64,000 nt of DNA from Trileptium ribeirensis (lineage: Eukaryota > Nematoda > Enoplea > Enoplida > Thoracostomopsidae). Location of the stretch: the NCBI GenBank assembly GCA_030248225.1, contig JASANE010000546.1, positions 36,411 to 100,410 on the forward strand, given 5' to 3'. Position 1 is the first letter of the stretch; each line of letters begins with the position of its first letter. The notes under the pieces are model-generated. The model saw only the letters and a program-made list of their open reading frames with translations, was not told where the DNA came from and ran no database searches. The position numbers and the translations under genes are program-made. Shown here piece after piece: positions 5,657 to 28,958 of this stretch.

Positions 5657-5694
5657 AATGTTCAGCCACCGCTTCTAAGAACAATCTTGACTAT

Positions 5695-7077
5695 ATGTTA
5701 TCTTGTAATACTAATAATGTTTTATTTTGTAATACGAACACTGCTTTATGTACCAATACGAACAATGCTATATGTTGTAATACGAGTACTGTTAATAATT
5801 CTTATAATGCGAACAATATTACGTTTTGTAACGTGAGCAATGTCGGATCGGTAGTTAAACTGCTTACGTCTTCGAACTTGAACAATAGAAATTGCGATAC
5901 TTTGCATCATTGTAGCGTTAACACTAGATCTGTCTTTAAACATAAACGCTATTCAAGTACTCTTTTGAATTGTTTGTCCCTAAATGCCAGGAGTCTAGTC
6001 AACAAAATTCATTTGTTACGCCAGTTAACATTGAGTTATAATTATGATGTTATATTCATAACCGAGTCGTGGGGTCGTGCCTCAGTACTAGATGGTGAGT
6101 TCAGTATTGACGGGTAGGATACCTTTAGATCAGATATAAAACACTCTACTGGTGGTGGGGTACTCATCTATGTCAATACTTACTTGAATGCAACATTGTT
6201 TGACCTGGGCCCCATAGAATATGACGACATAGTTGCACGTTTAGTTGTTTCAAACAAGACAGTGCTAGTATGTGCTTATCGCTCTCCCAGCAACAGTCTA
6301 CAACAAAACGACGCACTCTATGCAAAAATAGACTACGTCTGTTGCACCGTCGCTACCCATATTGTTATTGCGGGTGATTTTAACTATGCTGAAGTCGACT
6401 GGGATAATGATTTGTGGCCGAGTTCTGCTGATAGTTTTATAGAATGCATCAAATCAAATAATTTAAATCAATTCGTTTATAGCCCAACCAGCAACACTGC
6501 CATACTCGACCTAGTTCTATCAAACGAACCACACTGTATAGATGAACTGGAAACTTTTCCTCCTCTTGGGGCATCTGATCATTTGTGTTTGGTTTTCACC
6601 ATCCGGCTTAAAACAATCTTACAACGTGCACCAAATTTACATAACAATATCAACATCTGGAGAGCTGATTGGAAACGTATTAATACATCAATTCAGTGTG
6701 CCCTGGAACAACATTCCACAGATCAAAACGAGTCAACAGCAACGAATGTTACCGCAGATTGGAATTTTCTCAAAATATCAGCAATGAATGCACTTACCAC
6801 ACACAGTCCAGTAAGACTCAAACGTAATCAAGGCCCTCCCTGGGCAAATCGTGGAGCCCATAATGCTCATCGTATGATGAAAAATGCATACCGCGCATGG
6901 AGCCGCTCATATACGGCCCGATCTTATGATATTTACCTGGTCACAAAACAATACTTCGAATACATATGCAACAGATCCGTTTGGCTGTTCGAGCGCAACC
7001 TTGTTCATAACTTGAAAACCAATCCAAAGTCCTTTTGGGCCTACATCAACAGAAAAACTCGTCCAAGCCTAAGATAG
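5695..7077 (+). pseudogene. LINE ORF2 N-terminal part, APE-type endonuclease, interrupted
   Basis: The frame begins with a low-complexity Asn/Thr/Cys-rich stretch and then shows the apurinic-endonuclease-like fold used by LINEs to nick target DNA: LSLNARSL near the start, FITESWG, then after an in-frame TAG at 6115-6117 GGGVLIY, IAGDFNYAEVDW and the terminal ASDHLCLVF (the catalytic SDH). The stop at 6117 splits the domain into 5695-6117 and 6184-7077. After the endonuclease the connector region is present to about 7075, but the reverse transcriptase is missing. No function is expected. Confidence 0.85.
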
Positions 7078-7140
7078 GTCCTTTGAAAATCGACAGCGAC
7101 CTAGTCACTTCCGACATAGATTGTGCTGAGCATTTAACCA

Positions 7141-7660
7141 ACTTTCCCCCCCCTTTTCCTTGCCGGCCGGGGCCCTTCCCCCCCCCCCCTTCCTTCGAGC
7201 CCCCTCTAATTCCAAAAAAAAAACTAAATTTCCCCCCCCCGGCCCGATACGGAACTACTGCCCAAAACTTGCCTTTCTCCCCCCCCCCTCTCTTTTTTCC
7301 CCTCCCCCTTCGATCCCCCCTTTCTTCCCCCCTCCCCCCCCAACCCACCCGGACCCTCCCCTTTCTCCCCACCCACCCCTCCCCTCTACGTCCACCCATA
7401 CAAAAAAAACCAAACAATCCCATACGCAAAAAAAAAAATTTTCCTCCCCCCTTCCGTCCCCCTTTCTTTCTGCCTCCCCCGACACCCCCTCCTCCAGAAT
7501 AAAAACACTTCACAAAAAATTTACAACGCAAACCTCCCCTTTATTTTATTAAGAAGCTCCTCCCCCCCCCCCCCAACTCCCCCCCTCCCAACCAACCTGC
7601 CAATTAGGAAATTGCACTGATAAAAAAAAAAAAAAAAAAACCCCCCCCCCCACCGGTGGG
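7141..7660. repeat. C/T-rich low-complexity tract, possible assembly artefact
   Basis: Roughly 500 bases made of long C runs, T runs and A runs, ending in about 20 A followed by about 12 C. It begins abruptly inside the LINE connector region. The open frames across it are composition artefacts (Pro-rich one way, Gly-rich the other). It may be a genuine pyrimidine tract or low-quality gap fill. Confidence 0.6.
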
Positions 7661-8099
7661 CGGTGGTGGTGGTGAGTTATATGTTGGGGATTGCTATTAT
7701 TTATATGTATAGGTATATATGTCTAGCATACATGTATAAATATATGAACTTTAAATATATATAGATATATATATAAAGATATATGCAAATAAATACATAC
7801 ACACATAAACATACGTATAACTTTAAATTGATCTGAGATAGATGTTGGCTTGCTATACGTATACTTATGTACACAGAAATACATGTATTTAATGTATATA
7901 TAGCATACATGTATGTATATTGCAAGTATGGTGACAGATACAAACGTTTCGGCCGTACCAAGGGCCTCATCAGGCGGCTGTAGGCTACCGCTACGTTTTT
8001 TCTTTATTGAAAAAATTACATAATAATACAGATAAAGTATAATATACACACACAACATATACAGCAAAATATAAATGTTAACATATATAATATCTTCAT
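7661..8099. repeat. AT-rich microsatellite-like region
   Basis: Dominated by TATATA, ATACATGTAT and related words. The phrase AGCATACATGTAT occurs twice (about 7727 and 7903). Apart from the ribozyme-like motif near 7930-7990 I see no gene. Confidence 0.6.
7930..7990 (-). ncRNA. Hammerhead-ribozyme-like core, copy 1
   Basis: On the minus strand CTGATGA (7967-7973) is followed by a stem (GGCCC, loop, CGGCC with a GU/GC-rich helix), then GAAAC and a possible two-base-pair stem III with loop GUUU and A before the expected cleavage point. This is the arrangement of the hammerhead catalytic core. Hammerheads are known in Penelope-like elements and retrozymes. Stem I is only partly convincing (CUGU with ACAG), with extra unpaired bases before CUGAUGA, so activity is uncertain. 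Confidence 0.5.
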
Positions 8100-8504
8100 T
8101 TATTCCCTTTTAGCACCATATTGATGCACCAATTGATATTTTCGTCGCCGCGCATGAACTGGGTGGTCGTAGACGAATGCCGTTATGACTACATTGCCTT
8201 CTGTCACCACACATAATATGCAGCCTGGTTCACCCGTCCATCCTCGAAACCCAATGACTTTGTTGAATGTTTTGAAGTGCTCCACCCGATTATCGTGTCG
8301 CTTGAAGTGATCATCGCCGTTGTACACCGTTTCGTAGATATTTGCTTGGTAATCGTTGATGAGACGTGAATTTCCACTGGCAACGTGACCAGTATGACCA
8401 TGTACAAAGTGTTTACTGAAGTGGAGAAACATAAGCGACCGTTCGCAACGAATGAAAGTGTAAACTGATTTAATAAATTGAAATACACTGGTATATATAA
8501 ACAT
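8100..8504 (-). CDS. Unknown 134-aa ORF between two ribozyme-like motifs
   Basis: The reading frame is open for 134 codons. The product has a hydrophobic/aromatic start, a His-rich middle and a basic C-terminus (HARRRKYQLVHQYGAKRE). I recognise no domain. The first ATG (8504) lies inside the second hammerhead-like core (GAA-ATG-TTTATA), which makes that start doubtful; an internal Met at about residue 25 (8432) is an alternative. It is the last frame on the left side of the Maverick-like element, but it could instead belong to a ribozyme-bearing repeat inserted there. It lacks the promoter motif found upstream of the capsid genes. Confidence 0.35.
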   Translation of the reverse strand: MFIYTSVFQFIKSVYTFIRCERSLMFLHFSKHFVHGHTGHVASGNSRLINDYQANIYETVYNGDDHFKRHDNRVEHFKTFNKVIGFRGWTGEPGCILCVVTEGNVVITAFVYDHPVHARRRKYQLVHQYGAKRE

Positions 8505-8575
8505 TTCATCCCTGCCAAAGGAATCATCAGATGGCTTTACACCGTATACACGGTATTGGCTACCATTATGTTTTT
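8490..8575 (-). ncRNA. Hammerhead-ribozyme-like core, copy 2 (degenerate)
   Basis: On the minus strand CTGATGA (8524-8530) is followed by a stem (AUUCC/GGGAU), GAAAU, and stem III AU-GUUU-AU followed by A. Relative to copy 1 the stem III pair C-G is replaced by U-A, a compensatory change. The upstream flank shares words with copy 1 (AAAGAAAAAA, then GGTAGCC), so the two are diverged copies about 560 bp apart. A possible stem I is UAUACC/GGUGUA, separated from CUGAUGA by unpaired bases. Confidence 0.4.
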
Positions 8576-8581
8576 TTCTTT

Positions 8582-8887
8582 TTACTTCAAATCAAACATA
8601 TAACACAACTTAATAATATCATCATAATAATCAACATACAACATAGGGTATGACAATGATAATTCATACAAAGACTGTTTAAAAGTGTTTTCGTTCTTCA
8701 TTATAAATTCCACCGCCTTGATAATTGCTTGTCGTCGTCGTTGAACCTTGAACAAATTTTCTTCCTCTTTCGATCGCCCGTCGATATAGTCGCCTGTTGC
8801 TTCACATTGACGTCGAAACTCATCCACCCGATGTTGCCAATAATCAATATCCTTTTGAAGATAAACGTTGCGCACGTATTGTTCCAT
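8582..8887 (-). CDS. Small charged helical protein of the Maverick-like element
   Basis: About 101 residues from the ATG at 8887 (MEQYVRNV...). The sequence is rich in Glu, Arg, Lys and Tyr with long predicted helices (DIDYWQHRVDEFRRQCEA, then KEEENLFKVQRRRQAIIKAVEF), consistent with a coiled coil, and it ends in a hydrophobic/aromatic segment. It overlaps the end of the membrane-protein gene by about 44 nt. It has no recognised domain and no promoter motif of its own, so it may be read from the upstream transcript, or it may be a frameshifted continuation of that gene. The stop lies just before the second ribozyme-like motif. Confidence 0.5.
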   Translation of the reverse strand: MEQYVRNVYLQKDIDYWQHRVDEFRRQCEATGDYIDGRSKEEENLFKVQRRRQAIIKAVEFIMKNENTFKQSLYELSLSYPMLYVDYYDDIIKLCYMFDLK

Positions 8888-9383
8888 ACGCTTCACGAAT
8901 ATTGATTCCAATGTATCGTTGACGAATCACTTTATCCAAATCATACGTTGCGAGATGTTTCATAAATCTTGCTCCCATATAATGGTTGGTGAACGTATAT
9001 CCTCGATAAATACCAACCGATCGTACCAATATAAGTCCGTGTTGATAAGGTATCGATAAGTTCATAAACAAATGTTCAAATACGTCGAATAGATAAACCA
9101 TCTGTGCGTTCCATTTAAGACCTTTAGGTGGTTTGAGTCGAACGTTGAAGTGTAGATTTGATGATGTTTTATTGATCCATTTAATATCATAACCATTTGC
9201 CGGATCCCATTTTTCGCTTGATCCGGTTGTCCAGTCGTCGAAGCATAGACTTTTCGTACAATTTTCGAGGTTCCACGTGGTAGTAGTATTGCTACGCTTT
9301 ACACTTATGAACAATATAACCGTCTCCACAACAACAGCTACAAATAACATAGCATACAATAGAATAAAACGTTTGTTATCCAT
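8844..9383 (-). CDS. Putative membrane glycoprotein of the Maverick-like element
   Basis: 179 residues. A single strong hydrophobic segment lies at about residues 7-28, preceded by MDNKR, which predicts an N-terminal signal anchor with the rest outside or in the lumen. The remainder has two Cys close together (ENCTKSLCF) and several N-x-S/T sites, including NKTS and NLSI. I recognise no family. The ATG at 9383 lies 31 nt below the A of the promoter-like motif at 9408-9418, matching the spacing at other genes of the element. It directly follows the major capsid gene, so a role in the virion or at membranes is possible, but that is only inferred. Confidence 0.6.
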   Translation of the reverse strand: MDNKRFILLYAMLFVAVVVETVILFISVKRSNTTTTWNLENCTKSLCFDDWTTGSSEKWDPANGYDIKWINKTSSNLHFNVRLKPPKGLKWNAQMVYLFDVFEHLFMNLSIPYQHGLILVRSVGIYRGYTFTNHYMGARFMKHLATYDLDKVIRQRYIGINIREAYGTIRAQRLSSKGY

Positions 9384-9407
9384 GTTTGATTCAACTGCTT
9401 TCTAGAG

Positions 9408-9418
9408 CTATTTAAGAC
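9408..9418 (-). promoter_or_regulatory. Element promoter motif upstream of membrane-protein gene
   Basis: Minus-strand GTCTTAAATAG, a one-base variant of the element consensus, 31 nt upstream of the ATG at 9383. The TAA in it is the stop codon of the capsid gene. Confidence 0.6.
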
Positions 9419-10707
9419 ATTTTATTCCAAAATACTTCTTTATTTGAGTTTATGTTCAATTCAGCTGTAAATTCTCCCATTGCGAAAACCACAATAGCCT
9501 TCTTCAACTCCTCTACAAAATCAATAGAAAGTCTAAGTTGTCCATCTGGTGGGTTTGAAAGATAATTGCAATCACTGCTATGATCTCTGCTCAAATCAAT
9601 ACAAAATATTTGATAACCTGCACCATGTCGAAAGCCAACTTCAGTTAATCCTAAATTCTCTGTTCTACCGTTCAATGCATATAATGTATTATAAAACAAT
9701 CTCATATCATTACCAGCCTTACACGGTAAAGATATATTGCACGGGTATCTATCGTCATTCATAAACACGGTAAAACTATTCATATCTGGTAAACTCAACT
9801 TAAACAAGTTTGATTTTGGTGCACCAGCATATGCCTCTTGTGTTATTCCCCAAATGTATATTCTACGGGGTAATGATCCTTCAAAAATTGTCCAATCCAC
9901 GTTTTGTAATCCTTTATTTACTGAAAGGGTTTGAATCTTGTACCGTATACTAGGAAATTTGACCCCACTACTATTTAAAATTTTATCTTGATATTCCAGA
10001 GCTTGTTTTGTCAGCCTTGCTTTTGGTATATAAAGTTTAAAATCGTTTATTCTAACTAAAAGTTTATTAGCTGGTTCATGCAATAATATCAATGATGGTG
10101 AACTTCGAGTAAATTTAAACTCTAGTCTACTTTTCGGGGGTAAATAAGTCGGTGTTAACTGTGAGTCTGTAATGATGGGAAAGTAAAGTTCACATTTTTG
10201 TGACAATGAAGTCAAAGCATTCCTATAAACTGAGCCTTCGTTATCTTGTAGATCATCAAACATGTACGTCTGATCTGGTTTATAGAGACACCCTGCTAAA
10301 TATTGTTTTCTTTGCTCTTCACTCATATGTAGCATGTACAGCACATAAGTCATCCAAGGGTAATGCTTTTGGTTAAAGGTTATTGGTTCTCCATTAATTT
10401 TCATTTCAACTGAAGAAAAAAGTGCGTAGCCAAACATATTGCATGGTGTAAATTTAAGATTTGCCTCTTTAATCTCTTTGCCATCACCCTTTATAATTTG
10501 AAATTCAATATATGCAAAAATTTCTGATATATCAACTAAATCAAAAGCACTTTCACCAATTTTAAAACGAAACGAATCATCCGTATCTATGCTTGGTAAC
10601 GTTGTTTCACATGCGACTTCCACCAGCTGTGTCGAGATGATCGATTGCTGAACGGGGTATTGATTCCCCTGCCAGTTAAGTTTTTCGACGCCGCATTCGT
10701 TTGCCAT
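9412..10707 (-). CDS. Major capsid (hexon-like) protein of Maverick/adintovirus type
   Basis: 431 residues. It resembles the family annotated in animal genomes as F54H12.2-like, which sits next to integrase F54H12.3 in the C. elegans Polinton and is regarded as the double jelly-roll major capsid protein. The frame is complete and unbroken from ATG 10707 to TAA 9412. In virions such proteins form the trimeric capsomers of an icosahedral shell. No membrane segment or zinc motif is seen. The start is supported by the promoter motif at 10732-10744, 32 nt upstream, and by the gene start overlapping the tail of the small basic gene. The intact frame in a host chromosome suggests a recent insertion or continuing function. 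I identify it by resemblance and context, not by alignment. Confidence 0.8.
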   Translation of the reverse strand: MANECGVEKLNWQGNQYPVQQSIISTQLVEVACETTLPSIDTDDSFRFKIGESAFDLVDISEIFAYIEFQIIKGDGKEIKEANLKFTPCNMFGYALFSSVEMKINGEPITFNQKHYPWMTYVLYMLHMSEEQRKQYLAGCLYKPDQTYMFDDLQDNEGSVYRNALTSLSQKCELYFPIITDSQLTPTYLPPKSRLEFKFTRSSPSLILLHEPANKLLVRINDFKLYIPKARLTKQALEYQDKILNSSGVKFPSIRYKIQTLSVNKGLQNVDWTIFEGSLPRRIYIWGITQEAYAGAPKSNLFKLSLPDMNSFTVFMNDDRYPCNISLPCKAGNDMRLFYNTLYALNGRTENLGLTEVGFRHGAGYQIFCIDLSRDHSSDCNYLSNPPDGQLRLSIDFVEELKKAIVVFAMGEFTAELNINSNKEVFWNKMS

Positions 10708-10828
10708 GTTTGCTTTTCTTCTTCTTACGATCCTTTTTAAGACTTTTCTTCTTTACAGTTTTCTTAACGTTTTTGAGTGCTACTGCACTTAGTTGCCTTG
10801 ATGAATTGAAGCATAAAGGTAGCGCCAT
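10676..10828 (-). CDS. Tiny Lys/Arg-rich protein, candidate DNA-condensing core protein
   Basis: About 50 residues from the ATG at 10828; an ATG at 10849 would add seven residues. The C-terminal half is almost entirely basic (KKTVKKKSLKKDRKKKK, then KRMRRRKT). Short proteins of this composition serve as genome-condensing core proteins (mu/pX type) in adenoviruses, and comparable small basic ORFs have been proposed in adintoviruses. The second ATG is preferred because it lies 33 nt below the promoter motif at 10854-10866, the spacing seen elsewhere, whereas the first ATG lies only a few bases below the motif. It overlaps the start of the capsid gene in another frame, and the capsid gene's own promoter motif lies within it. 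Confidence 0.6.
   Translation of the reverse strand: MALPLCFNSSRQLSAVALKNVKKTVKKKSLKKDRKKKKSKHGKRMRRRKT
10732..10744 (-). promoter_or_regulatory. Element promoter motif upstream of capsid gene
   Basis: Minus-strand AGTCTTAAAAAGG, with the first T-to-A step 32 nt upstream of the capsid ATG. It lies inside the coding sequence of the small basic protein. Confidence 0.7.
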
Positions 10829-10853
10829 ATTGATGTATAACACTTGCATTAAT

Positions 10854-10866
10854 CCTTTTTAAGAAC
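10854..10866 (-). promoter_or_regulatory. Element promoter motif upstream of small basic gene
   Basis: Minus-strand GTTCTTAAAAAGG, directly after the stop of the penton-like gene. It is 33 nt upstream of the second ATG (10828) of the small basic gene, which decides the preferred start. Confidence 0.7.
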
Positions 10867-11481
10867 TTATGAGAACTGTAACCTAATGACCATTTTTGCT
10901 CCTTGAAAAAACTCCACTGGTTTGAATTCACAGTCTAATACCTCAAAACCCAGCACTTTAAACATACAATTATTCAAGTCTAACGATATAGTATTTTTGG
11001 GTGCTGATATTACATGTAGCAATGGTTTATATCTTCCATTAACTAATCGATCTTTTACAAATGAGCTCATAAGAAACGTAGGTTTGTACACTTTGAGATC
11101 CACACATTTATTCCCTGCGTGTCTACCATTTTTCAAATGAGGGTTTTCGAAGCCAAACAACTCCTGAATTTCGGGAAATAATTTTATTTCTGCGTTATCT
11201 AGCAAATATACACTAACCATGTCACAGCATGGGTTGACAGTAAACTCAATGCTGGTACTGAACATGTTTAGGTATGAGAGTAGATTATCAATTGTATAGT
11301 ATCCTTTTTCAACCTTAAATTGTTTCCACGACTTGTTTGAAAAATACTCAACGGTGCCTCCCCGTATGTTTACATACCTATCGGGAAGCTGTACATCCAT
11401 TACTCTAACTCTGGTTGCACAAAATGCCGTTGGAAACTCAACAGCCGGTTCGCTCAAGTCACAAACAACTACAACTTCCAT
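10867..11481 (-). CDS. Putative penton/minor capsid protein
   Basis: 204 residues from ATG 11481 (MEVVVVCDLSEP...). The frame is open further upstream to 11553, but the start at 11481 lies 32 nt below the promoter motif, and the extra upstream residues are encoded by bases belonging to the end of the TBP-like gene. The protein is beta-rich, with alternating hydrophobic stretches and no membrane segment, as expected for a single jelly-roll vertex protein. Its position just before the small basic and major capsid genes matches the minor-capsid position in Maverick-type elements. The penton call rests on size and position, so it is a candidate only. Confidence 0.55.
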   Translation of the reverse strand: MEVVVVCDLSEPAVEFPTAFCATRVRVMDVQLPDRYVNIRGGTVEYFSNKSWKQFKVEKGYYTIDNLLSYLNMFSTSIEFTVNPCCDMVSVYLLDNAEIKLFPEIQELFGFENPHLKNGRHAGNKCVDLKVYKPTFLMSSFVKDRLVNGRYKPLLHVISAPKNTISLDLNNCMFKVLGFEVLDCEFKPVEFFQGAKMVIRLQFS

Positions 11482-11500
11482 TATTGATGATAAGAGTTTA

Positions 11501-12007
11501 TTAAAGCCTTTTAAGAATATTATACACTGTATTGCACAACAAATAAAAATCATTTGTATATTTACATCCAGTAACTACCACATTCCCACTACTGAAAATC
11601 AAAGCTATACCTTTATTTAGGGTTAATTTCATGCTATTATGCAATTCGGTTTCATACATTACGGGGTAACTACCTCTTAGTTGCTCGTAAAGACGTGATA
11701 AGTTTATTTTAAATCCACTTCTTAGTAAACCAGCTACATTTACAACATGTTGTTCAAGTTTTGAAAAGCACTGATAGTCCAATTTTTGCAATTTTTCTCT
11801 CGCTCTATTAAAAATTTCATTTCCTTCAAATTCTGACCTAACACCAACTAATACAAGCTTTCCATTTGAAAAAGTTAATATAGTTCCTCTAGGTTGAAAT
11901 TTCCAAATACCACCATTAAACCGCAACATATCATAATCAAAGTTATCAATTTCACATGATAAGTACATCAAGTCAACACTACATCCAATGTTCGTTGTTA
12001 TTGTCAT
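11501..12007 (-). CDS. TATA-binding-protein-like transcription factor encoded by the element
   Basis: 168 residues from ATG 12007, close to the ~180-residue core of TBP. Two direct repeats are visible: residues about 2-85 (TTNIGCSVDL, ILTFSNGKLVLVGVRSE, AREKLQKL) and about 86-168 (VVNVAGLLRSGFKINLSRL, IALIFSSGNVVVTG, VYNILKRL). These match the repeat signature of eukaryotic and archaeal TBP, including the phrase (A)LIFSSGxxVxTG. Three of the four DNA-intercalating Phe positions appear kept (F30, F46, F138); the fourth looks replaced near H123. The gene begins 5 nt after the NADAR stop and has no promoter motif of its own, implying a shared transcript. TBP bends promoter DNA and recruits RNA polymerase; here it may serve the element's own promoters. 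The last codons contain the promoter motif of the next gene. Confidence 0.82.
   Translation of the reverse strand: MTITTNIGCSVDLMYLSCEIDNFDYDMLRFNGGIWKFQPRGTILTFSNGKLVLVGVRSEFEGNEIFNRAREKLQKLDYQCFSKLEQHVVNVAGLLRSGFKINLSRLYEQLRGSYPVMYETELHNSMKLTLNKGIALIFSSGNVVVTGCKYTNDFYLLCNTVYNILKRL
11507..11518 (-). promoter_or_regulatory. Element promoter motif upstream of penton-like gene
   Basis: Minus-strand ATTCTTAAAAGG, 32 nt upstream of ATG 11481. It is embedded in the last codons of the TBP-like gene (Ile-Leu-Lys-Arg). Confidence 0.65.
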
Positions 12008-12012
12008 ATTAG

Positions 12013-12516
12013 TTATTTCGCTTCGTCTCGAATTTCCATCCAAAGTCCACCCAAAATGTTCTTTCCTTTCCATTTCTCCACGTCCTTGCTGTTTGCATCC
12101 TGAATGTTGATCCCGATTCCCCAATATTGATCCCATTCCGACGCCTCCGCTATGATTGCTTGCTCCGTTCCGATCAATGCCGCTCGCACATGAGGTAGTT
12201 GCTCCAACTTTGCCCGTAGTCCAATCATCATTATTGACGCCGCATTGTCGTACCATTTCTCCGCGTCGAAGTTTTTGATCTGACGACCCAGCTTCTTCTG
12301 TTGTGACGGTTTGAATGTTGACATTATTAATTGATATGTTTCCATGTCGTTGAAGAACCGCGCCTTTTCGCTTTGATACCATTGTTCCACGCAATTGTAC
12401 TTGACACCGTTGATCAATATCCGTCCCACATTGAAGTTGCTGAACACGCTCCATCCCGAACGAAATAAGACGAGTGGTGTTCCGTCGGTTGTTGTACAAT
12501 ATTTAGTATGTTCCAT
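12013..12516 (-). CDS. NADAR-domain protein (YbiA-like N-glycosidase family)
   Basis: 167 residues, one full NADAR domain. Family landmarks in order: FSNF after a Gly-Trp, GVKYNCVEQWYQSEKARFF, LGRQIKNFDAEKW, AKLEQ, EASEWDQYWGIGI, and NILGGLWMEIRDE at the C-terminus. NADAR proteins cleave N-glycosidic bonds: bacterial YbiA removes reactive riboflavin-pathway intermediates, and others remove ADP-ribose from guanine in DNA. In this element it may undo ADP-ribosylation of element DNA or deal with nicotinamide/ADP-ribose metabolites; that is inference. It is followed after 5 nt by the TBP-like gene and preceded by a TATA box and initiator about 135-165 nt upstream, so the pair probably shares one transcript. 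Confidence 0.88.
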   Translation of the reverse strand: MEHTKYCTTTDGTPLVLFRSGWSVFSNFNVGRILINGVKYNCVEQWYQSEKARFFNDMETYQLIMSTFKPSQQKKLGRQIKNFDAEKWYDNAASIMMIGLRAKLEQLPHVRAALIGTEQAIIAEASEWDQYWGIGINIQDANSKDVEKWKGKNILGGLWMEIRDEAK

Positions 12517-12717
12517 GTTATTTAATAGTATATTACTATTTAATAATGTTAGCTAATATATTGCTACTATTTAATAAAATCGTAACAATGCTTTAGATGG
12601 AGAGCGATTAAACAAAACACGACCAATTTCAATGAAAGCAAAACTAAGACTGATCAGCTTTTGAAAATACACGTCTTTATATAGTTGTATGCTCGATTTT
12701 GATTGGTTGATGCCTTT
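12517..12717 (-). promoter_or_regulatory. TATA + initiator promoter of the NADAR-TBP gene pair
   Basis: Minus-strand TATATAAAG (12675-12683) is followed 32 nt later by TCAGTC (12648-12653, +1 A near 12651), a classic metazoan TATA-initiator pair. The implied leader is about 135 nt and contains three AT-rich repeats of the word TATTTAATA or its complement (about 12529-12577) just before the ATG. There is no element-type motif next to the ATG. One copy does occur 197 nt upstream, at 12713-12725. Confidence 0.6.
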
Positions 12718-12725
12718 TTAAGAAT
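12713..12725 (-). promoter_or_regulatory. Orphan copy of the element promoter motif
   Basis: Minus-strand TATTCTTAAAAAGG overlaps the stop codon of the 139-residue gene. No ATG follows at the usual distance; the next gene (NADAR) starts 197 nt downstream. It may provide a second, later promoter for the NADAR-TBP pair. Confidence 0.5.
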
Positions 12726-13137
12726 AAAGTGTTCTCCATTTAGTTTTATGTTCCACAGCTCTACTTTTTCTCCCCCTCCCAAATGCTGATAGGGGTACAC
12801 TGCCTAGTAGCGTTTCAAATTTGTCGGAGTCAAGAGGTCGAGGGGGTGAAAAGTTAACATCTGATACAAAGTACTTGACCAAATCAAATATGTTGGAACC
12901 AACAGTTTTATCCGGGTAAATCACTTGGTTGTTATCATTCAACCTTAAATCTTTTATATTGTTTAACATTAATTTAGCTTTATTTCGTAAATTTTTAGGA
13001 AACATTAGCGACAAGTCTGGTTTTTCTTTGCTTTCGTAAACAGTTACTTCATTTCTAACTGGTACTTTATCCTGCAGCCCACCATTTTTCATGACATCTA
13101 GCCAACTTACTGGTACCACCGCCATTTTACGTGCCAT
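12718..13137 (-). CDS. Conserved-type small virion protein, unknown function (139 aa)
   Basis: 139 residues. The N-terminus reads MARKMAVVPVSWL; the middle is charged and helical (FPKNLRNKAKLMLNNIKDL), followed by a Pro-rich segment (FSPPRPL) and a basic end (FGRGRKSRAVEHKTKWRTLYS). Maverick-type elements carry proteins of this general character near the packaging ATPase, thought to be virion or maturation substrates; I cannot name a family. The start overlaps the end of the preceding 91-residue gene by 11 nt, suggesting coupled translation. No promoter motif precedes it. Its stop codon is part of the motif at 12713-12725. Confidence 0.6.
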   Translation of the reverse strand: MARKMAVVPVSWLDVMKNGGLQDKVPVRNEVTVYESKEKPDLSLMFPKNLRNKAKLMLNNIKDLRLNDNNQVIYPDKTVGSNIFDLVKYFVSDVNFSPPRPLDSDKFETLLGSVPLSAFGRGRKSRAVEHKTKWRTLYS

Positions 13138-13402
13138 AATGTTTATTAAAGTAATTAATCAAATACTTTACAACAGTAGGTTTAAGCAACTTTTTCTTTC
13201 TTGAAACCGAAATGCGTTTACTTGCAATACTTTTAAGACCTTTACGTTTGGTTTTGGGGTTTTGTACTATGTTATATGCAATCTCCGCAAATGCGTGAAG
13301 TAGAGATAGAGGTGCAACTTTGATAACAGCTGAAATAACTTTAGACGATGATCCACCAAGAAACTTTAACGCTGGTAAATTACGTTCAATATTTCGAGAC
13401 AT
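13127..13402 (-). CDS. Small basic protein, candidate minor capsid or DNA-associated
   Basis: 91 residues. The N-terminal half is amphipathic/hydrophobic (LPALKFLGGSSSKVISAVIKVAPLSLLHAFAEIAYNI) and the C-terminal half strongly basic (KTKRKGLKSIASKRISVSRKKKLLKPTV). A short protein with this composition (LPxLK... then Lys/Arg-rich) is a recurrent neighbour of the ATPase in animal Maverick elements. A role in packaging or as an adenovirus pVI/pX-like internal protein is plausible but unproven. The start is supported by the promoter motif at 13428-13440, 33 nt upstream. It overlaps the next gene by 11 nt. Confidence 0.65.
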   Translation of the reverse strand: MSRNIERNLPALKFLGGSSSKVISAVIKVAPLSLLHAFAEIAYNIVQNPKTKRKGLKSIASKRISVSRKKKLLKPTVVKYLINYFNKHYGT

Positions 13403-13427
13403 AATGCGAATTATATTATGAATAAAT

Positions 13428-13440
13428 CCTTTTTAAGAAT
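13428..13440 (-). promoter_or_regulatory. Element promoter motif upstream of 91-aa gene
   Basis: Minus-strand ATTCTTAAAAAGG, 33 nt upstream of ATG 13402. The TAA in it is the stop codon of the ATPase gene. Confidence 0.7.
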
Positions 13441-14191
13441 ATACAAACAACTGTTCATCGTCCGGGAATATATTCTGTCGTACCCTCAATATATTTTCAG
13501 TTGCTGGTTTCAAATCAAGAAATAAATAACCAAACGGTTCTCTTGTTGCTTGCTCAAATGCGCTTGATAGAAAGTTTGGTTTAGAAGGCCACATTTGCCT
13601 TCCCAAGGTATGTATCATTGACTGATCTCGAAAGTTGGGAAACAAGACCATATACTGAGCATTGCGGGTGATTGTTCGCATATACTTGCCCTCATGGTAC
13701 AAGTTTTGGGTTACAAATATCGTACTGAGCTTGTTGTGACGCATGCGAGAAAACGCTGCTGCAAGCTTTTTATCATTTGCTGCCTCTATCATTAGATCAT
13801 CCAAAACACATACAGTGTTACCATCGGTGGTTGGAAACTCTATGGGTATACCTTCGTATAGTTCTAAATTTGGTATCTCGTTCATCATATTACTATAAAT
13901 ATCTTGAAAAATGCTATAACAGTATAAAATTTTATCTATCTTTTCATCAAATAGCCCATGTTTCAATAATCGATATATCCATCTAGTTTTTCCACTACCA
14001 GTTTGTCCGCTTACGACGCATGTGAATGGTAGCTCCAATGGTAATAGTACGCTATCAGTATCACAACTTTGAACGTCAACATGACAAATTGATGACACAG
14101 TTTTCGGTTGAGCTCTACAAGTTTTCTTATGTCTATGCAAATGCTGACGAGAAGTGTAAGCACGATTGCAGTCGAGACATACATGATCCAT
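13433..14191 (-). CDS. FtsK/HerA-type genome-packaging ATPase with N-terminal zinc finger
   Basis: 252 residues. Residues 5-25 form a C2H2/C2HC zinc finger (CLDC...HLHRHKKTC). Walker A is GQTGSGKT at 62-69 and Walker B is VCVLDD at about 127-132, followed by a sensor-like FVTQNLYHEG, consistent with the A32/HerA packaging ATPases of Maverick elements and large DNA viruses. The protein would pump element DNA into preformed capsids. All catalytic motifs are intact. The start is supported by the promoter motif at 14216-14229, 32 nt upstream. The zinc finger resembles those at the N-terminus of the element's polymerase. Confidence 0.9.
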   Translation of the reverse strand: MDHVCLDCNRAYTSRQHLHRHKKTCRAQPKTVSSICHVDVQSCDTDSVLLPLELPFTCVVSGQTGSGKTRWIYRLLKHGLFDEKIDKILYCYSIFQDIYSNMMNEIPNLELYEGIPIEFPTTDGNTVCVLDDLMIEAANDKKLAAAFSRMRHNKLSTIFVTQNLYHEGKYMRTITRNAQYMVLFPNFRDQSMIHTLGRQMWPSKPNFLSSAFEQATREPFGYLFLDLKPATENILRVRQNIFPDDEQLFVYS

Positions 14192-14215
14192 TGTTTATGT
14201 AAGCTGTTAATTGCT

Positions 14216-14229
14216 CCTTTTTAAGACAT
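14216..14229 (-). promoter_or_regulatory. Element promoter motif upstream of ATPase gene
   Basis: Minus-strand ATGTCTTAAAAAGG, 32 nt upstream of ATG 14191, just past the end of the repeat array. Confidence 0.7.
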
Positions 14230-14556
14230 TTGTACCCCTGTGTATCTCTATTCTATGCCTCTGTTGTGCACCCATATTCTGTACCCCTATAGGTCTCATT
14301 TGAACCTCCATGTACCCCTGTACCCCTTTAGGTGCCACTTGTACCCCTATTCTGTACCTCTATGTGCCCCTATTATGCACTCTTACGGGTACGCATTGTA
14401 GCTCTATGGGTACGCTTTGTACCCCTATTCTGTACCCCTACAAGTATGTTTGAACCCATATGGTTACACTGTATACCCATATTCTGTACCCATCTAGGTG
14501 CGTTTTGTATCCCCATGTACCCATGTTCTGCAGCTCTACGGCTACGTTTTGTACCC
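14230..14556. repeat. Degenerate tandem array between integrase and ATPase genes
   Basis: Many variants of TTGTACCCCTATTCTGTACCC and TACGGGTACG follow one another, giving an irregular unit of roughly 16-35 bp. No coding frame in it resembles a protein. Words such as CTCTATGGGTA recur in the array at 20.1-20.5 kb on the other side of the polymerase gene. Confidence 0.75.
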
Positions 14557-15618
14557 TTAAATAGGTCGCAAATCGCGTTCATGTACCCATGAGTTCATTG
14601 ATTTGGGGTACCCCAACCACTTGACTAGGTATTCTGTACCTTCCTTAGTCTTGCGTTTACGTATTATTTTTTCAATCTTATAGGTATCATCTGCAACATA
14701 TACTTTTTGAAGTTCCTGAGTATAAAATCTACCTAAAATAGTTTCATTATTTGCATCATTTATCTCATATACCGGAGGGTTGAATGGAAGTTGATTATTA
14801 ACTGTAAATACTTCACGCGACCAAAGCTGATTGAAGCCACGCTCAAACGGTAAACGTTCTTTGCTTATTCGTACAATGTCTCCGAGTTGAAATTTATATC
14901 GTACTTCAATGTCGTCAGCCGGGAATAGTTTATCTCGTATTTCTTCTTCATTATCTACAGACACTTTGGAAGGAACATATCCATAGCGATTTTCGGTGTT
15001 GTTATAGCTATCAACGAATGACTGCAAATGGTCTACATATCGTGTCGTGTTATTTGCTGTAAGAAACTTGTAAATTTTACCTTTAAGAGTTCGTATAAAA
15101 CGCTCAGCCATACTTGCCTTAGTTTCTTTATTCTTTGCTGTATATACGTTAATACCTTTAGTTTTACAATAGTCATAAACTAAACTATTTACAAACTCTT
15201 TACCATTATCGGTTTGAAAATTTTCGGGTTTACTTGTTTCAAATACTTGTTTCAGTGCTTTGAGAATTGTGGGTGCTGTTTTATTTTTTACTGGGACAAC
15301 CCATGCATACTTTGAAAAGCAGTCAATTACAATTAGTAAGTACTTGAAACCATCGTTATATGCTGAAAGATTTGATATATCCGCCAAATCAGCCTGATAA
15401 AGATCACGCAATCCTTTCACAACTGTGCGTCGTCGCTTAAATCTAAGTCTTCGGGGTTTATGTAACGTGTGTGTTTCTTGTGCTCGTAACCAGTCTTGTA
15501 CATCTTTCAACTTAACATTTACACCACGTTTACGAGCCTCATGATATAATTTCGATGCCGTAGAAAATCCAGCAACATTAGATGCATCATAATAAATCGA
15601 CTTTAGCTTGTCATCCAT
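14557..15618 (-). CDS. Retrovirus-like integrase with C-terminal chromodomain
   Basis: 353 residues, complete. After a helical N-terminal region, an rve-type catalytic core carries D77 (QADLAD), D137 (TDNGKEF) and E172 (MAERFIRT), with the expected spacing of about 35 residues between the second Asp and the Glu. A DNA-contacting region with the phrase KFQLGDIVRISKER follows, then a chromodomain at about 313-353 (EYLVKWLGYPKSMNSW). Integrases of this form (F54H12.3-like in animal annotations) insert Maverick/Polinton DNA into chromosomes, and the chromodomain may direct target choice. It lies between the polymerase gene and a repeat array. The ATG lies 36 nt below the motif at 15648-15660. Confidence 0.93.
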   Translation of the reverse strand: MDDKLKSIYYDASNVAGFSTASKLYHEARKRGVNVKLKDVQDWLRAQETHTLHKPRRLRFKRRRTVVKGLRDLYQADLADISNLSAYNDGFKYLLIVIDCFSKYAWVVPVKNKTAPTILKALKQVFETSKPENFQTDNGKEFVNSLVYDYCKTKGINVYTAKNKETKASMAERFIRTLKGKIYKFLTANNTTRYVDHLQSFVDSYNNTENRYGYVPSKVSVDNEEEIRDKLFPADDIEVRYKFQLGDIVRISKERLPFERGFNQLWSREVFTVNNQLPFNPPVYEINDANNETILGRFYTQELQKVYVADDTYKIEKIIRKRKTKEGTEYLVKWLGYPKSMNSWVHERDLRPI

Positions 15619-15647
15619 TGCAACTGTATGTTATGAAAACAGCAGTA

Positions 15648-15660
15648 GCTTTTAAGACAT
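15648..15660 (-). promoter_or_regulatory. Element promoter motif upstream of integrase gene
   Basis: Minus-strand ATGTCTTAAAAGC, 36 nt upstream of ATG 15618. It is slightly weaker and further away than at the capsid genes. Confidence 0.55.
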
Positions 15661-15818
15661 TCCTGCATGTTTAACACCTTCCAGTGCGCAGGTTGTCTAT
15701 ATCAGCTCGAGCGAAATAACAAGGTTGATAACACATTTTATTAAAACAATACATATAACACATGACATAAAATCATAGATATAGCACATAGTACGATAAT
15801 ACACAAATATTCACTGTT

Positions 15819-18023
15819 TCAATCATGATTATGCATACACTCCAATAAGTTTAGAAACTTTATATCACAATGTCCATAAGCATAAGATGTAACTCCGTCG
15901 TTCAGAATGTATCTTTTATCATCAAAAGCTGATAAACTAGTCTTGTTCAATGTAACTGTGTTCAATAAATGTTTATTCGACCAAATCATGTTCATCTGGT
16001 GTCGCAGCTTGCTGCTATTCAATAATGTATCCACGTAGTTTTGATGTTTAAGTTCATTCTTCACAACTACCTTCTTGATGCCTTTTGCCCGCTTCTTCTC
16101 TTCATCCCCGCATTTGATACTGTACATTTTGGAACGCAATCCCACAAACTCTTCTATTGCGATCCCCACCGTTTCGTCTTTCATCTTTCCCAATACCTTT
16201 TTGTTAACTGTTGAATAATGTGGGTGATCCATCGGGTAGTCGCTTGTATCGAAGAATGAATTGTTGTGTGCCATGTCGTCGTAAATGTCATTGGTGTTGA
16301 CTTGATAACATAATGAATCTGTATCCGTAAAAAGGAGTCGACATTGGTTTCCATACATCGCTTTCATGTAACCGTAATGAAATTCATACATAAGGGTTTT
16401 TGAAAGGTCTAGAATGGTAAAACCGACGTAAATAGGTTTGCATAAATTGATCGTTTTACGATGCATCTTCACTGCAACGAGGTCTTCTTTAAAGATTGAT
16501 GACATTGAATATCGGGGGTTTGCAACTAATTTCGTGTATCGTTTTTTGTCCGTGACTAGGTGCACATCAACGTAGCCCCTCACGTTCTCCATTGTTTTAC
16601 CATACACCGCATTGTTGAGAAGTTTGTAAAGATCTTTTTCGAAATCGCTAGTCGCCGCCTTTCGCATTTCTGTATTGAACGTTACATACCGCTCGATCCA
16701 CGCCCATTGAAAGAATGATACAACACGGTGTACCTTTGTAAGTTTTATTCCGAGATTTAGATATTGCTGTAGGTTGCGAATATGTACTTTGTAGTACTTT
16801 TTGTTATTAAGGTTTGGTACCAACTTTTGCACTGTCGAATTTGTGACGTTGAGTGATTGCTTGATCACCGTGCAATACGATGATAACTTATCGCACGTGA
16901 TATTCAGACGTTCCGGTGCGAGTGGGTAATCGTTGTGTAAATCGTGGAGTTCATCGGGGTACTCCAAATCCACTTCCAATATATACCCAGTGTCACCATT
17001 AGTATCAACTGATGTCCAATCAATTGTCTCAATCTCATTGCGCGACATCCATTTAAATGTATGACATGGTAACTTCTGTACCATCGACCATCCATATAAA
17101 TTGTTTGCATCGAGGTATATGATGTAGTTGCTGGGTTGCGATGGGTCGTATCCGTCGATATAGGGGTTGTTTGCCCTCGCATATCGGTGTGAAATTACCG
17201 ACACCCCACCGCGTATGCCTTCTTCGAAGAAGGAATACATATCGCCATCGTCTATAAGATCCAATTTGACGCCGGTGAACTTGAGACATGCATCCCACGC
17301 GAAACTGGGGAGTGTGATGTAATGAACTGGGTCGAGTTGGTATTTGTTTATTGCAAATCTTCGAAAGTTCTCGAACACATCGCATAATAGTAAAACGTCC
17401 GTTTTGAGATATAGATCGTGGTACTCGCCCATGTTGTTGATCCCCATCGTCTTCCACACTGTTTGAGCATGTATGTAATCCTCATTGTTGACGCTGTCGC
17501 CATTGAGAGATGAATAGAACGCTGACTTTGGGGGTAGTGACGTTTCGTTGAATCTATCCTCATTATCCATGTATTCGTAGGGGTAGACACCTTTACGTAC
17601 CATTAGATCGATTTTGTCACCAAATGATTTCTTCGTAGCATTGAATGCATCGGTGCCATTCTTTTTCAAGTTGCTGGTAAGTGATTGTAACGATGTGGTG
17701 AGAAATTGAAACGTATCAACAAATCGAATCTTCCATCCAATTTCTTCCTGTTCGTCTTCCTTGTCGTCATTGCCCAATATAAAGTCCACCCCATCAACAT
17801 CTTCATCCCAACATTCCTCATCATCATCATTGCCCTCATCATCAGCTGTATCCAATATAAAAGGGTTTTTGTTTCTACCGATACAGCTAACTTGTCGTCC
17901 CTTCTTGCCTTTCTTTGATTTCCGTTTGATTGAGAATGTCATGTAGTCTTCCATCCCCTTCGCGATACATTCGATCTCGAGTCCTTGCTCTCTACAAACT
18001 GCTCCGATTTCTTGCATGATCAA
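15819..18023 (-). pseudogene. Protein-primed DNA polymerase B, C-terminal part (exo III and palm)
   Basis: 734 codons open from about 18023. Visible motifs: Exo III region YHDLYLKTDVLLLCDVF (about 201-217), polymerase motif A YLDANNLYGW with D305, motif B KLLNNAVYGKT, and motif C FTDTDSLCYQ with both catalytic Asp. This is the protein-primed family B polymerase of Polintons. An acidic insert at about 61-95 (DDEGNDDDEE and on) is unusual. Homology runs straight on from the preceding frame, so the ATG at 18023 is probably not a true start: the gene is one polymerase split by a single-base frameshift near 18030-18050, in the exonuclease domain. The catalytic palm is intact. Confidence 0.85.
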
Positions 18024-19858
18024 ATGTCCATCATACCGTCGTAGGTTATGAAATAAACCGTGACGTCACGACTAAGATGGTAGCCAATGTTACATTTGAG
18101 GTGTGCTGCACCACGATAACGCCCACATATATGACAATGATCCTTAGCTTTGTTGTCTTTTGTCAACCACCCACCACATAGATAACACTTTATCGCATCC
18201 CTATGATTGATACGATCTTCATCTGTCATTATGATTGATTTTTGGTTGTTCATAAGATGTTCTTGGAACGATGTTGAGAGTTCTATCACATTGCGAAGAA
18301 ATTTCTTGACCACGTCGTCACCGCGATATACAATGGGGTCTCCAATTTTGATCATGTCGTAACAGCACCCAAACGCTTCCACTAGACCATATCCACATGG
18401 GGTATGTCGCTGATATACGCTAGTGTATGATGTAGTAGATGAAGGTTCACATGTATCAATTTTTTGTAGTATACATTCGAAGTCCGCGTAAATAACGTAT
18501 GGTGCACGTTGCATGCGTTGAAGGTTGCGAAATTCGAGAGTTGAGTTGGGAAGGGGGACCTGTACGCGAGATGGTTGGTCGTTGCGACATTGTTTCACAT
18601 GTTCATTGCGTTGTTCCCTGGTGTAGCATGGAATTAAACACTTGTCGCAAAAATATTTCTTCGTCTTATGTCGTCTTTGATCATGTAATAATGCATCCAA
18701 GCTGCGTACCAAACAATAATGTCCTTTGTATAATAGGAGATGGATATATTGCTGGTGTAGAGTCTTTGAAATGTATAGTGGGTAAATATCGCCATCCTCC
18801 AATCCATAAACGTTCACTGCTATATTGTTTTGCAGCTCGACTCGTGGTATGTCGAGAAGCCTGACGGGGTATTCGATTCCATCCATATTGAGTTCTTCCG
18901 CAAATGGTTCGTAGTTGCTAACTCGTTCCGCGTGTTGCTTGTAATCCAACGGTTTAACCGCGGCCAAGACCGACCACAAGAAGCATTTGTTGTCGTTGTT
19001 CTGAATGTTGAGAACAGCATGCTTGTTTCGAATTGACGCTGGAAGTTGGTGGTATGAAGACGCTCTTAGGGGTCGGTAGATGCTGATATGAACATCAGCG
19101 TGTTTCACATCTTGTAGAATCCAACCTGATCCGCGTGCCTCGAAATCCTCGAAATTCTTGGTGATTTCTTGATAAACATCTGCAATTTCATCCGGTACGT
19201 TTGATCCTGGTAGTATCGATCGTGATTTTGCGTTAAAATGTGCTATCATGGTCGACCCGTCGAGCTTTGTGAGAACGCACTGAACGCTGATCCACAACTT
19301 GACTCCATGCTGTCGTCGCCGAAAAACTATATTTTCCAATATCGATCTTGATTGATTGAGGAACGTTGAAAGATCGTTAATTACATGCTTCGGGACCATG
19401 TAGTAACTGCGAATATATCCTTTGAGTGCGGTGATCCATTGACATACGTCGATTGATTTTGTTTGTTCCACCAATGTTGTCTGCTGCTTGCACCCGTTTG
19501 TATTGTTCGCCATATTCGTCAATTTATCGAGATCATCTTCAACACATCGCGTTTTTGCTGGTATTATTTCATCTCGGTCCGCCGATCGTTTCTGCGCCGT
19601 TGTTTCGTACTGTGGTACTGCTTGACTGAGCTCTGAAACGCTGTTGTGCTGCTTGTCTGATATCTTAGATTTTTGACCTGTTGACGTTGTCTGGTTGTGC
19701 CATCGCTTGACGTGTCGCACCAACGTGTCTTTGCGTGAAAACACATTGCCACATTGTTCGCACTTCCATTCCATCGCTTTGTGAATACTTTGATTGTGTC
19801 GTGTTAAATGATCACGTCTCGAGAATTCGATATTACATTGAACACACCGTAGTGCCAT
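18020..19858 (-). pseudogene. Protein-primed DNA polymerase B, N-terminal part, ends at a frameshift
   Basis: 612 codons from ATG 19858. Two C2H2 zinc fingers at residues 5-26 and 33-54 open the protein. A mid region with a Cys cluster (CDKCLIPC...H...C) follows, then exonuclease motif I YADFEC (D459, E461), and near the end a second zinc/HNH-like cluster (CYLCGG...DHCHICGRYRGAAH...C). The frame leaves homology in the last dozen codons, where the Exo II segment should start, because of a one-base deletion relative to the downstream frame. The defect could be a real mutation or a sequencing error. The ATG directly follows a weak motif copy (CTCTTAAAAGC), and a TATA box lies about 127 nt upstream. 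Confidence 0.85.
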
Positions 19859-19990
19859 AGCTTTTAAGAGATTATAACGTAAATTAAGTTACTAGCTTTA
19901 TTAATAATTTCCTAAAATCAATGACTGTTTGTTAGTGAGGCAAAACGAGAATTATTTGAAAAATATAAATTCACTTCTTTTTATACTCTA
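19859..19990 (-). promoter_or_regulatory. Polymerase gene promoter: TATA box and weak element motif
   Basis: Minus-strand TATAAAAAG at 19977-19985 is followed 28 nt later by TTCAAAT (A near 19957), a plausible start site, leaving a leader of about 100 nt. CTCTTAAAAGC at 19859-19870 abuts the ATG, so it does not share the 32-nt spacing of the other genes. Confidence 0.5.
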
Positions 19991-20109
19991 AAATCTGGCA
20001 CTGTGCCAACCAGCTAAACCACGCGCTGGTAGGGAAGAACATGTTTGAGTAATCTAATACATACACCAAATCTCCGATTTTCGAAAACTGTGCCTAAGAT
20101 TGCGATGGG

Positions 20110-28718: not shown

Positions 28719-28958
28719 TTAATAAAACTGCGGTCAGCATAGTTCGAAACATCTCCGCAGGTGTCGTTGTTTCAGAAAAGCCGACCAATCCAGATTCAAC
28801 ACAGCCAATCGACGTGATCGATAAGATGTCTACGTACGTAACGTTTCGCCTGCCCGAATGGCAGGATTTGGCTGAGGACGATTCGCGCGCGCCCGAACAA
28901 ATCGAAATCGAGTACGGTGTTGACCAAAACTTTGGCGAAAGCGTGAATGTGGATTGGG
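28719..28958 (+). CDS. NCAM-like exon: first half of FnIII domain 1
   Basis: It begins after GCGAACAG, phase 1 (matching the previous exon), and ends before GTTAGT, phase 1. It encodes a linker and the first strands of a fibronectin III domain (STYVTFRLPEWQDL, then PEQIEIEYG). The acceptor has a weak pyrimidine tract. Confidence 0.75.

Follow-up and report, generated by a model that had tools for sequence, protein, structure and literature searches.

A TATA-binding protein as a core gene of Maverick-type elements in Trileptium ribeirensis, and its candidate variant TATA boxes

A TATA-binding protein (TBP) encoded by a Maverick-type element in the nematode Trileptium ribeirensis is a conserved core gene of these elements, not stray cargo. 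Distinct TATA-like boxes precede many element genes at a near-fixed distance, and their form varies with the type of TBP that the element carries. We consider it probable that the element TBP is a private core-promoter factor with a cognate variant TATA box, acting through host TFIIB and RNA polymerase II (Pol II).

Gene content of the element

The window, that is, the whole 64-kb stretch of DNA that was analysed, contains one such element. All its genes, from PolB to orf109, are located on the minus strand. The gene set includes PolB (two overlapping frames), integrase (INT), ATPase (ATP), orf91, orf139, a NADAR-domain gene, TBP, PEN, MCP, orf179 and orf109, and profile support from Pfam was obtained for the integrase, its chromodomain, the ATPase, NADAR and TBP. 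The ORFs and the Pfam matches together confirm the earlier statement that TBP is flanked on both sides by element genes of the same strand. The following genes were assigned.

18020..19858, minus strand: N-terminal part of PolB with zinc fingers (ORF reading)
15819..18023, minus strand: C-terminal part of PolB (DTDS motif read by eye)
14557..15618, minus strand: rve integrase with a C-terminal chromodomain (PF00665, 2.6e-13; PF00385, 4.5e-11)
13433..14191, minus strand: A32/FtsK-like packaging ATPase (PF04665, 1.8e-05)
13127..13402, minus strand: orf91, conserved element gene (synteny)
12718..13137, minus strand: orf139, conserved element gene (synteny; no motif at 28-48 nt)
12013..12516, minus strand: NADAR-domain gene, 5' neighbour of TBP in the tested loci (PF08719, 9.8e-39; synteny)
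12008..12016, minus strand: I-T-N codons upstream of the first ATG of TBP, in frame and overlapping the NADAR stop (alignment of 25 element TBPs)
11501..12007, minus strand: element TBP, 168 aa as first read (PF00352, human TBP core match, AF2/Foldseek)
10867..11481, minus strand: PEN, penton-position gene, read from MEVVVV inside an ORF listed to 11553 (position and conservation only)
9412..10707, minus strand: candidate MCP (low-confidence model with BFVD matches; synteny)
8844..9383, minus strand: orf179, conserved element gene (relatives in loci L064 and L066, there ahead of the integrase)

An rve integrase with a C-terminal chromodomain is named as a defining trait of the Maverick/Polinton-adintovirus group in PMC11071296. 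The element has this trait and an A32/FtsK-like ATPase, and it shares the integrase with chromodomain, the A32-like ATPase and the capsid-position genes with Maverick/Polinton and adintovirus elements. The putative PolB ORFs gave no PolB profile match, their motifs being read by eye, and no OTU profile match; in the window copy the PolB frame is interrupted at 18020-18023, between the two overlapping ORFs. Pfam searches with PEN and with the candidate ORFs for an adenovirus-like protease and a penton gave no match. At E<=0.001 the structural model of the candidate MCP (pLDDT 52) has 77 matches in BFVD. Most of those listed are capsid proteins of viruses, with adomavirus LO7 at the top, and the model is too poor for use beyond this general trend. 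Only two sequence relatives of MCP were found, both distant, and a PDB profile search with the MCP alignment returned nothing useful. The NADAR protein may reverse ADP-ribosylation, perhaps as a counter-defence, as judged from its family. A small Lys-rich ORF from 10828 (minus strand), a possible core protein, lies between PEN and MCP and has a motif of its own. No convincing pair of terminal inverted repeats was found within 6000-23000.

Identity and fold of the element TBP

The interval 11501..12007 is an open frame on the minus strand only, its plus strand being full of stops. The identification of the 168-residue product as a TBP in the preliminary description was borne out by profile and structure. 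The protein matches PF00352 with E 8.3e-26 (score 90.1 bits, cut-off 22.9) in two stretches that represent the two lobes, and the human TBP core was matched in a sequence search of the PDB (E 1.4e-15). The AF2 model, made for 171 residues with the upstream I-T-N included, has a mean pLDDT of 95.3 and the expected saddle fold; its top Foldseek match is human TBP within the pre-initiation complex (7egb_P; TMq 0.93, rmsd 1.4). A chance ORF or a misread fold is ruled out by the Pfam, PDB, AF2 and Foldseek results. Both repeat signatures quoted earlier, TFSNGKLVLVG and LIFSSGNVVVTG, are present, and three of the four intercalating phenylalanines are retained as described (F, F, H, F), the first Phe of lobe 2 being His. 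Four intercalating Phe are typical of cellular TBPs and are no requirement for membership in the family; since profile and fold both identify a TBP, the window protein is a variant inside the family. It has no extra C-terminal domain.

The start at ATG 12007, and with it the 168-residue reading, is probably too short. The in-frame I-T-N upstream matches the first strand of TBP, and its Asn is present in all 25 element TBPs compared. In the other aligned element TBPs the frame already begins before this ATG position, and its opening strand has Asn as the last residue (ITN, VMN or YTN). No ATG immediately precedes I-T-N in the window subfamily; judging by the aligned sequences, the true start probably lies at 12008..12016 or still further upstream.

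Conservation of the TBP gene among element copies

The genome searched, which includes the window, comprises 687 Mb in 20,229 contigs. In the TBP family search the best 150 of 975 candidates were scored, all above the cut-off and located on 138 contigs; TBP matches thus listed, part of which were read, occur on at least 137 contigs besides C9496, which carries the host TBP gene. The latter is intron-bearing, and its protein is close to human TBP, as would suit an animal host. The element ATPase yielded at least 1196 first-look candidates, and the best 150, which were scored, have an identity of 70% or more, with an internal stop listed for 34 of them. From these best 150 of 1196 ATPase candidates, the Maverick expansion in this genome is very large.

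The gene order INT-ATP-orf91-orf139-NADAR-TBP-PEN-MCP recurs among the copies. Among the 30 best ATPase loci, 26 have a TBP start immediately behind NADAR; of the remaining four, L029 and L036 are cut by a contig end, and L016 and L023 have a disrupted region. NADAR is ahead of TBP in all seven loci L002-L008 and in 19 further TBP loci. By comparison with the window protein, PEN follows TBP in all of these TBP loci except L005, L050 and L051, and in L050 and L051 a divergent ORF occupies the PEN position. The most distant families are represented by these two loci, fam50 (L050, contig C15360) and fam51 (L051, contig C19578), whose TBPs are 23% and 27% identical to the window TBP, respectively. 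Their pieces contain relatives of the integrase, ATPase, orf91 (weak), orf139, orf179 and MCP; unlike in the window element, orf179 is ahead of the integrase. NADAR adjoins TBP even in families where the NADAR proteins are 32-40% identical over the aligned parts.

One open frame runs through both lobes in 35 of the 48 element TBP loci read at full length (L002-L008, L040-L058 and L069-L090), a picked, non-random set in which 14 loci were chosen partly for short frames, three of these 14 being whole. Among 25 open element TBPs the median dN/dS is 0.20 (range 0.09-0.67), with 49 of 52 pairs below 0.5; these are the usable pairs out of 300 (dS 0.1-1.5), the TBPs are open by choice, and the pairs are not independent. 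The preliminary description had allowed for a chance insertion of host coding sequence in this copy only; instead, the sampled element families have the gene in a syntenic position, and it evolves under purifying selection.

Phylogeny and relatives in other genomes

In a maximum likelihood tree of 35 rows, 12 element TBPs and two proteins from other public contigs (P0004 and P0005, one contig being 10.5 kb) fall on one side of a branch with support 100/96; the root is the midpoint, and long branches could pull the element rows together. On the opposite side are the host TBP, other eukaryotic TBPs and two viral TBPs from IMG/VR, as well as two proteins labelled archaeal by their look. In the comparison with host TBP that had been proposed earlier, the element TBPs form one clade apart from it, the tree leaving the host TBP's own place unresolved. 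P0004 pairs with the fam50 TBP (99/93), which suggests that the element TBP lineage is likely not restricted to one genome.

IMG/VR scans with the single TBP, ATPase and MCP sequences and with the ATPase and MCP alignments revealed no relative. The scan with the TBP alignment found two viral contigs, L059 and L060 (79.7 and 132 kb), which encode full TBPs that group with cellular TBPs, outside the element clade. The phage collection gave just three haloarchaeal-virus records at E 0.6 and two Vibrio phage records at E 7.

The position of the gene and this phylogeny leave practically no chance that some copies recently captured host TBP without function: capture of such a eukaryotic gene is conceivable, but the separate deep clade, the purifying selection, the same position in the families read and the relatives P0004 and P0005 on other public contigs rule it out.

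Two classes of upstream regions

Reading upstream of the window-element starts revealed TCTTAAAA at a near-fixed distance ahead of many of them. A canonical TATATAAA stands ahead of NADAR-TBP, and TATAAAAA ahead of PolB. The boxes are listed below.

19978..19985, minus strand: TATAAAAA, 127 nt upstream of PolB
19862..19869, minus strand: TCTTAAAA, only ~10 nt before the PolB ATG, an outlier in spacing
15650..15657, minus strand: TCTTAAAA before the integrase
14219..14226, minus strand: TCTTAAAA before the ATPase
13431..13438, minus strand: TCTTAAAA before orf91, overlapping the ATPase stop codon
12676..12683, minus strand: canonical TATATAAA, 167 nt upstream of NADAR-TBP
11509..11516, minus strand: TCTTAAAA before PEN, inside the C-terminal codons of TBP
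10857..10864, minus strand: TCTTAAAA before the small Lys-rich ORF (start 10828)
10735..10742, minus strand: TCTTAAAA before MCP, within codons of the small Lys-rich ORF
9411..9417, minus strand: TCTTAAA(T) before orf179

Measured from the C of CTTAAAA, the distance to the start codon is 38 nt for INT, 34 nt for ATP, 35 nt for orf91, 34 nt for PEN, 35 nt for the Lys-rich ORF and 34 nt for MCP; orf179 has the form CTTAAAT at 33 nt. No box is present at 28-48 nt from the window starts of PolB (10 nt), orf139, NADAR, TBP and orf109. The longer word TCTTAAAAAGG occurs five times in the 64-kb window, each time on the element coding strand and inside the element. One TCTTAAAAAGG, at 12716-12723 (minus strand), overlaps the stop codon of orf139, some 40 nt ahead of the NADAR TATATAAA, and has no start assigned to it; the motif at 13238 likewise precedes no assignable start. 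Boxes within the codons of the preceding gene (PEN in the end of TBP, MCP in the Lys-rich ORF, and the fam50 and fam51 ATPase in the end of the integrase) may owe part of their conservation to coding constraint.

The two box types separate the genes of the near copies of the window element (L009-L038, at least 80 nt of upstream sequence). In these copies CTTAAAA is found at 28-48 nt before ATP (28/29), orf91 (30/30) and INT (9/9), and never before NADAR (0/28), TBP (0/26) and orf139 (0/30). TATAWAAR within 200 nt upstream is found for NADAR (31/35) and once for orf139 (1/33), and is absent from ATP (0/29), orf91 (0/30), TBP (0/32), MCP (0/5) and INT (0/1). The 31 NADAR cases are all 28 near copies and three of seven other loci (L002, L006, L008); none was found within 200 nt of NADAR in L003, L004, L005 and L007, nor within 250 nt in fam50 and fam51. 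The split into early and late classes is based on window-type copies, and most class counts come from near copies. The TATATAAA ahead of NADAR-TBP is likely a host-read early promoter.

Repeats occur next to some of these regions. The integrase-ATPase gap (14220-14592) is filled by degenerate TGTACCCCTAT-type repeats, and similar GGGGTACA words are found ahead of the ATPase in other copies. Divergent repeats of the type AACACxxCCGTAAGGGTGTAAT, read by eye, lie upstream of PolB (19859-20600).

Family-specific boxes

The box reads CTTAAAA in window-type elements, whereas the two distant families have CATAAAA and CATGAAA; most boxes lie 31-46 nt ahead of the ATG. In fam50, CATAAAA precedes MCP, orf179, INT, ATP and PEN, and CATGAAA precedes orf91 and NADAR; in fam51, CATGAAA precedes MCP, a 60-aa ORF, orf179, INT, ATP, orf91, NADAR and PEN. 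The fam50 and fam51 motifs ahead of orf139 fall beyond the range tested (57 and 51 nt, respectively), and the TBP genes of these families have no motif upstream.

The enrichment test considered the commonest 7-mer starting 28-48 nt before gene starts, not named beforehand. It was TCTTAAA in the window element (7 of 12 starts; CTTAAAA, 6 of 12), CTTAAAA in six other window-type families (18 of 36 starts), ACATAAA/CATAAAA in fam50 (5 of 9, plus two CATGAAA) and CATGAAA, with shifts of it, in fam51 (8 of 10). With random positions and random ATGs as the two controls, 2000 trials each, the enrichment was matched by none of the 2000 trials in any of the four groups under either control; the best random value was 7 in the 36-start group and 3-5 in the others. 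Shared ancestry does not inflate the window, fam50 and fam51 tests, because each uses different genes of one element; the six-family group consists of related copies. Across the four groups, occurrences of the own motif on the sense and antisense strands number 9:0, 33:5, 8:0 and 14:1.

The boxes are mutually exclusive at 28-48 nt between the window type and the distant families: CTTAAAA is absent from all nine fam50 and all ten fam51 starts, and CATAAAA and CATGAAA are each absent from all 48 starts of window-type families. Within the seven window-type families, CTTAAA precedes INT (4/4), ATP (4/4), orf91 (3/3), PEN (7/7) and MCP (5/6); the counts for orf139, NADAR and TBP are 0/7, 0/7 and 1/6. 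The motif of the fam003 MCP is at 71 nt. Of 45 loci, many of which are related copies, 44 have a box before PEN, at 33-44 nt, that agrees with their type of TBP: CTTAAAA in 31 of 32 (the miss being L072), CATAAAA in 5 of 5 and CATGAAA in 8 of 8. These 45 are the loci among the 48 with a placeable PEN ATG (all but L005, L055 and L077), and the box was counted within 52 nt.

Residues at DNA and TFIIB contacts

Contact residues were counted in the alignment of 25 element TBPs. In lobe 2, the first Phe position is His in 22, Phe in two and Tyr in one; the second is Phe in 20 and Tyr in five; the Pro position is Asn in 23 and Pro in two; and the Asn position is Asn in 22, Ser in two and His in one. 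In lobe 1, the second Phe is kept in 23 with Trp in two, and the Thr position is Val in 23 and Leu in two. The lobe-1 Asn, the lobe-1 first Phe and the lobe-2 Thr are kept in all 25, and the glutamates that contact TFIIB are kept in 24 and 25 of 25. The changes at DNA contacts track the clades. Window-type proteins combine Phe-to-His/Tyr with Pro-to-Asn in lobe 2 (23/25), and the distant families have lobe-2 Asn-to-Ser with lobe-1 Phe-to-Trp (2/2, and also P0004 and P0005).

Aligned to TATAAAAAG, all three forms of the element box have C at position 1; the window type has T for A at position 2, and fam51 has G at position 4. Lobe 2 of TBP contacts the 5' half of the TATA box, and two Asn contact its centre; such contacts would be consistent with the changes seen in the window type (positions 1-2) and in fam51 (position 4). 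The fit is less simple for fam50, where Ser is present but the box mostly has A at position 4, and for the Pro kept in the distant families. PMC12529657 reports that this lobe-2 Pro favours T as the first base of the TATA box. An explanation of C at box position 1 by loss of this Pro alone fails for the distant families, which keep the Pro in three of four sequences and yet have C there, so the Pro residue alone does not explain the box.

Proposed mechanism and alternatives

The preliminary description had raised the possibility that these elements program their own promoters. Family-specific TATA-like motifs at a near-fixed distance are indeed present; beyond that, we infer that the motif acts as a core promoter element read by the element TBP and not the host TBP, that host TFIIB and Pol II are used, and in what order the genes are expressed. 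The element TBP would bind the variant box of its family about 35 nt upstream of the integrase, ATPase and capsid-region genes, take the place of host TBP there and then recruit host TFIIB and Pol II. Host TFIIB is favoured by the kept glutamates and by the Pfam scans, in which no ORF of the window element matched TFIIB (a divergent TFIIB could escape them). As the box lies about 35 nt from the ATG, transcription would begin shortly before the start codon. In window-type elements, host TBP would read the canonical TATATAAA before NADAR-TBP and TATAAAAA before PolB early; the element TBP would next turn on the integrase, ATPase and capsid-region genes from the CTTAAAA boxes. In fam50 and fam51 NADAR-TBP itself bears the variant box, and the system would be self-activating.

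We also lean, somewhat less firmly, towards a wider reading, in which each lineage has its own TBP and a variant box (CTTAAAA, CATAAAA or CATGAAA) that diverge together. Such orthogonal pairs would coexist with the host's pair in one nucleus and reprogram host Pol II by a change of TBP alone. The mixture of CATAAAA and CATGAAA in fam50 complicates this pairing.

Alternatively, host TBP or another host factor could read the boxes, with the element TBP as a decoy that would lower host transcription by sequestering TFIIB or other partners. The kept TFIIB-contact glutamates agree with such a role, as does the change of basic residues of helix H2 in most copies. Nevertheless, three boxes of similar spacing that vary with the TBP type in the same genome are unexpected if one host TBP reads them all, and the many DNA-contact residues kept, including the three invariant ones (25/25), go beyond the need of a decoy; we regard this explanation as unlikely.

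Less probable still is that the motif is an RNA-level signal, for re-initiation or processing, and that the TBP acts elsewhere. The tight packing of the genes and the overlap of several motif copies with the stop or last codons of the preceding gene would suit it. Against this, the INT and ATPase motifs of the window element are 162 and 331 nt past the preceding stop, the fam51 form contains an ATG, a triplet one would not expect in an mRNA leader, and all forms of the box resemble TATAAAAAG.

That the element TBP serves element or host genes transcribed by RNA polymerase III or I seems very improbable. Several polymerases use TBP, and PMC7221094 describes the TFIIB/Brf surface as shared, but the motifs precede protein-coding genes, and no Rfam family reached its gathering score within the window.

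Relation to known viral TBPs

Virus-encoded TBPs are already known from giant viruses and mirusviruses, and as a herpesvirus mimic. A close parallel to the proposed element factor is ORF24 of KSHV, with its relatives in beta- and gamma-herpesviruses, a TBP mimic that steers host Pol II to TATTWAA at late genes (PMC12529657). Both would combine a virus-encoded TBP-like factor with a divergent TATA box. ORF24 needs a C-terminal domain and partner proteins and is without the TFIIB glutamates, whereas the element protein is a bare two-lobe TBP with these glutamates kept and CTTAAAA, CATAAAA or CATGAAA as boxes.

TBP-like proteins of Nucleocytoviricota have a viral TBP saddle like that of the element, and the best BFVD match of the element TBP is from Heterosigma akashiwo virus (TMq 0.83, 17% identity). 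In PMC7221094, nearly all viruses with a TBP-like protein are stated to encode a TFIIB-like protein as well, and the first TFIIB-contact glutamate to be kept in ~40% of viral TBPs. Unlike giant viruses, the element keeps the TFIIB glutamates, and no TFIIB gene was seen with Pfam. TBP is present in 59% of mirusvirus genomes, with 0% given for Nucleocytoviricota, according to PMC10132985; it is thus a common gene in mirusviruses too, but these are a different, larger kind of virus. Related endogenous mavirus-like elements (EMALEs) in one genome have different promoter motifs, as is the case here; PMC8547959 takes these motifs to imply interaction with different giant viruses, whereas every family in the present genome carries a TBP of its own.

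Searches of the open-licence literature yielded no published TBP of a Maverick or adintovirus, and TATA, TBP and NADAR are absent as terms from the main text of the Maverick/Polinton/adintovirus papers looked up. The new findings are that TBP belongs to the core genes of Maverick-type elements, that NADAR constantly accompanies it, and that the TATA-like boxes are specific to families and match the TBP type. TBP is among the most conserved eukaryotic proteins, and its DNA specificity hardly changes. If the proposed reading is true, diverged TBPs that each stand beside their own box in one genome show how TBP-TATA specificity evolves, Maverick-type elements join the viruses that encode TBP, and they offer a virus-like system of small size in which host Pol II is switched from early to late genes in a simple way.

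Neighbouring features in the window

Two further features of the window were noted. At 4705-7077 (plus strand), ORFs that resemble by eye a PHD-type finger protein and an endonuclease-type protein are likely a broken LINE adjoining the element. Inverted repeat arms of 54 nt, 94% complementary and with flanking pairs, bound ~3.8 kb at 25966-29930; this region, which contains 300-nt repeats with a spacing of 303 bp (26992-27897), is likely a separate DNA transposon.
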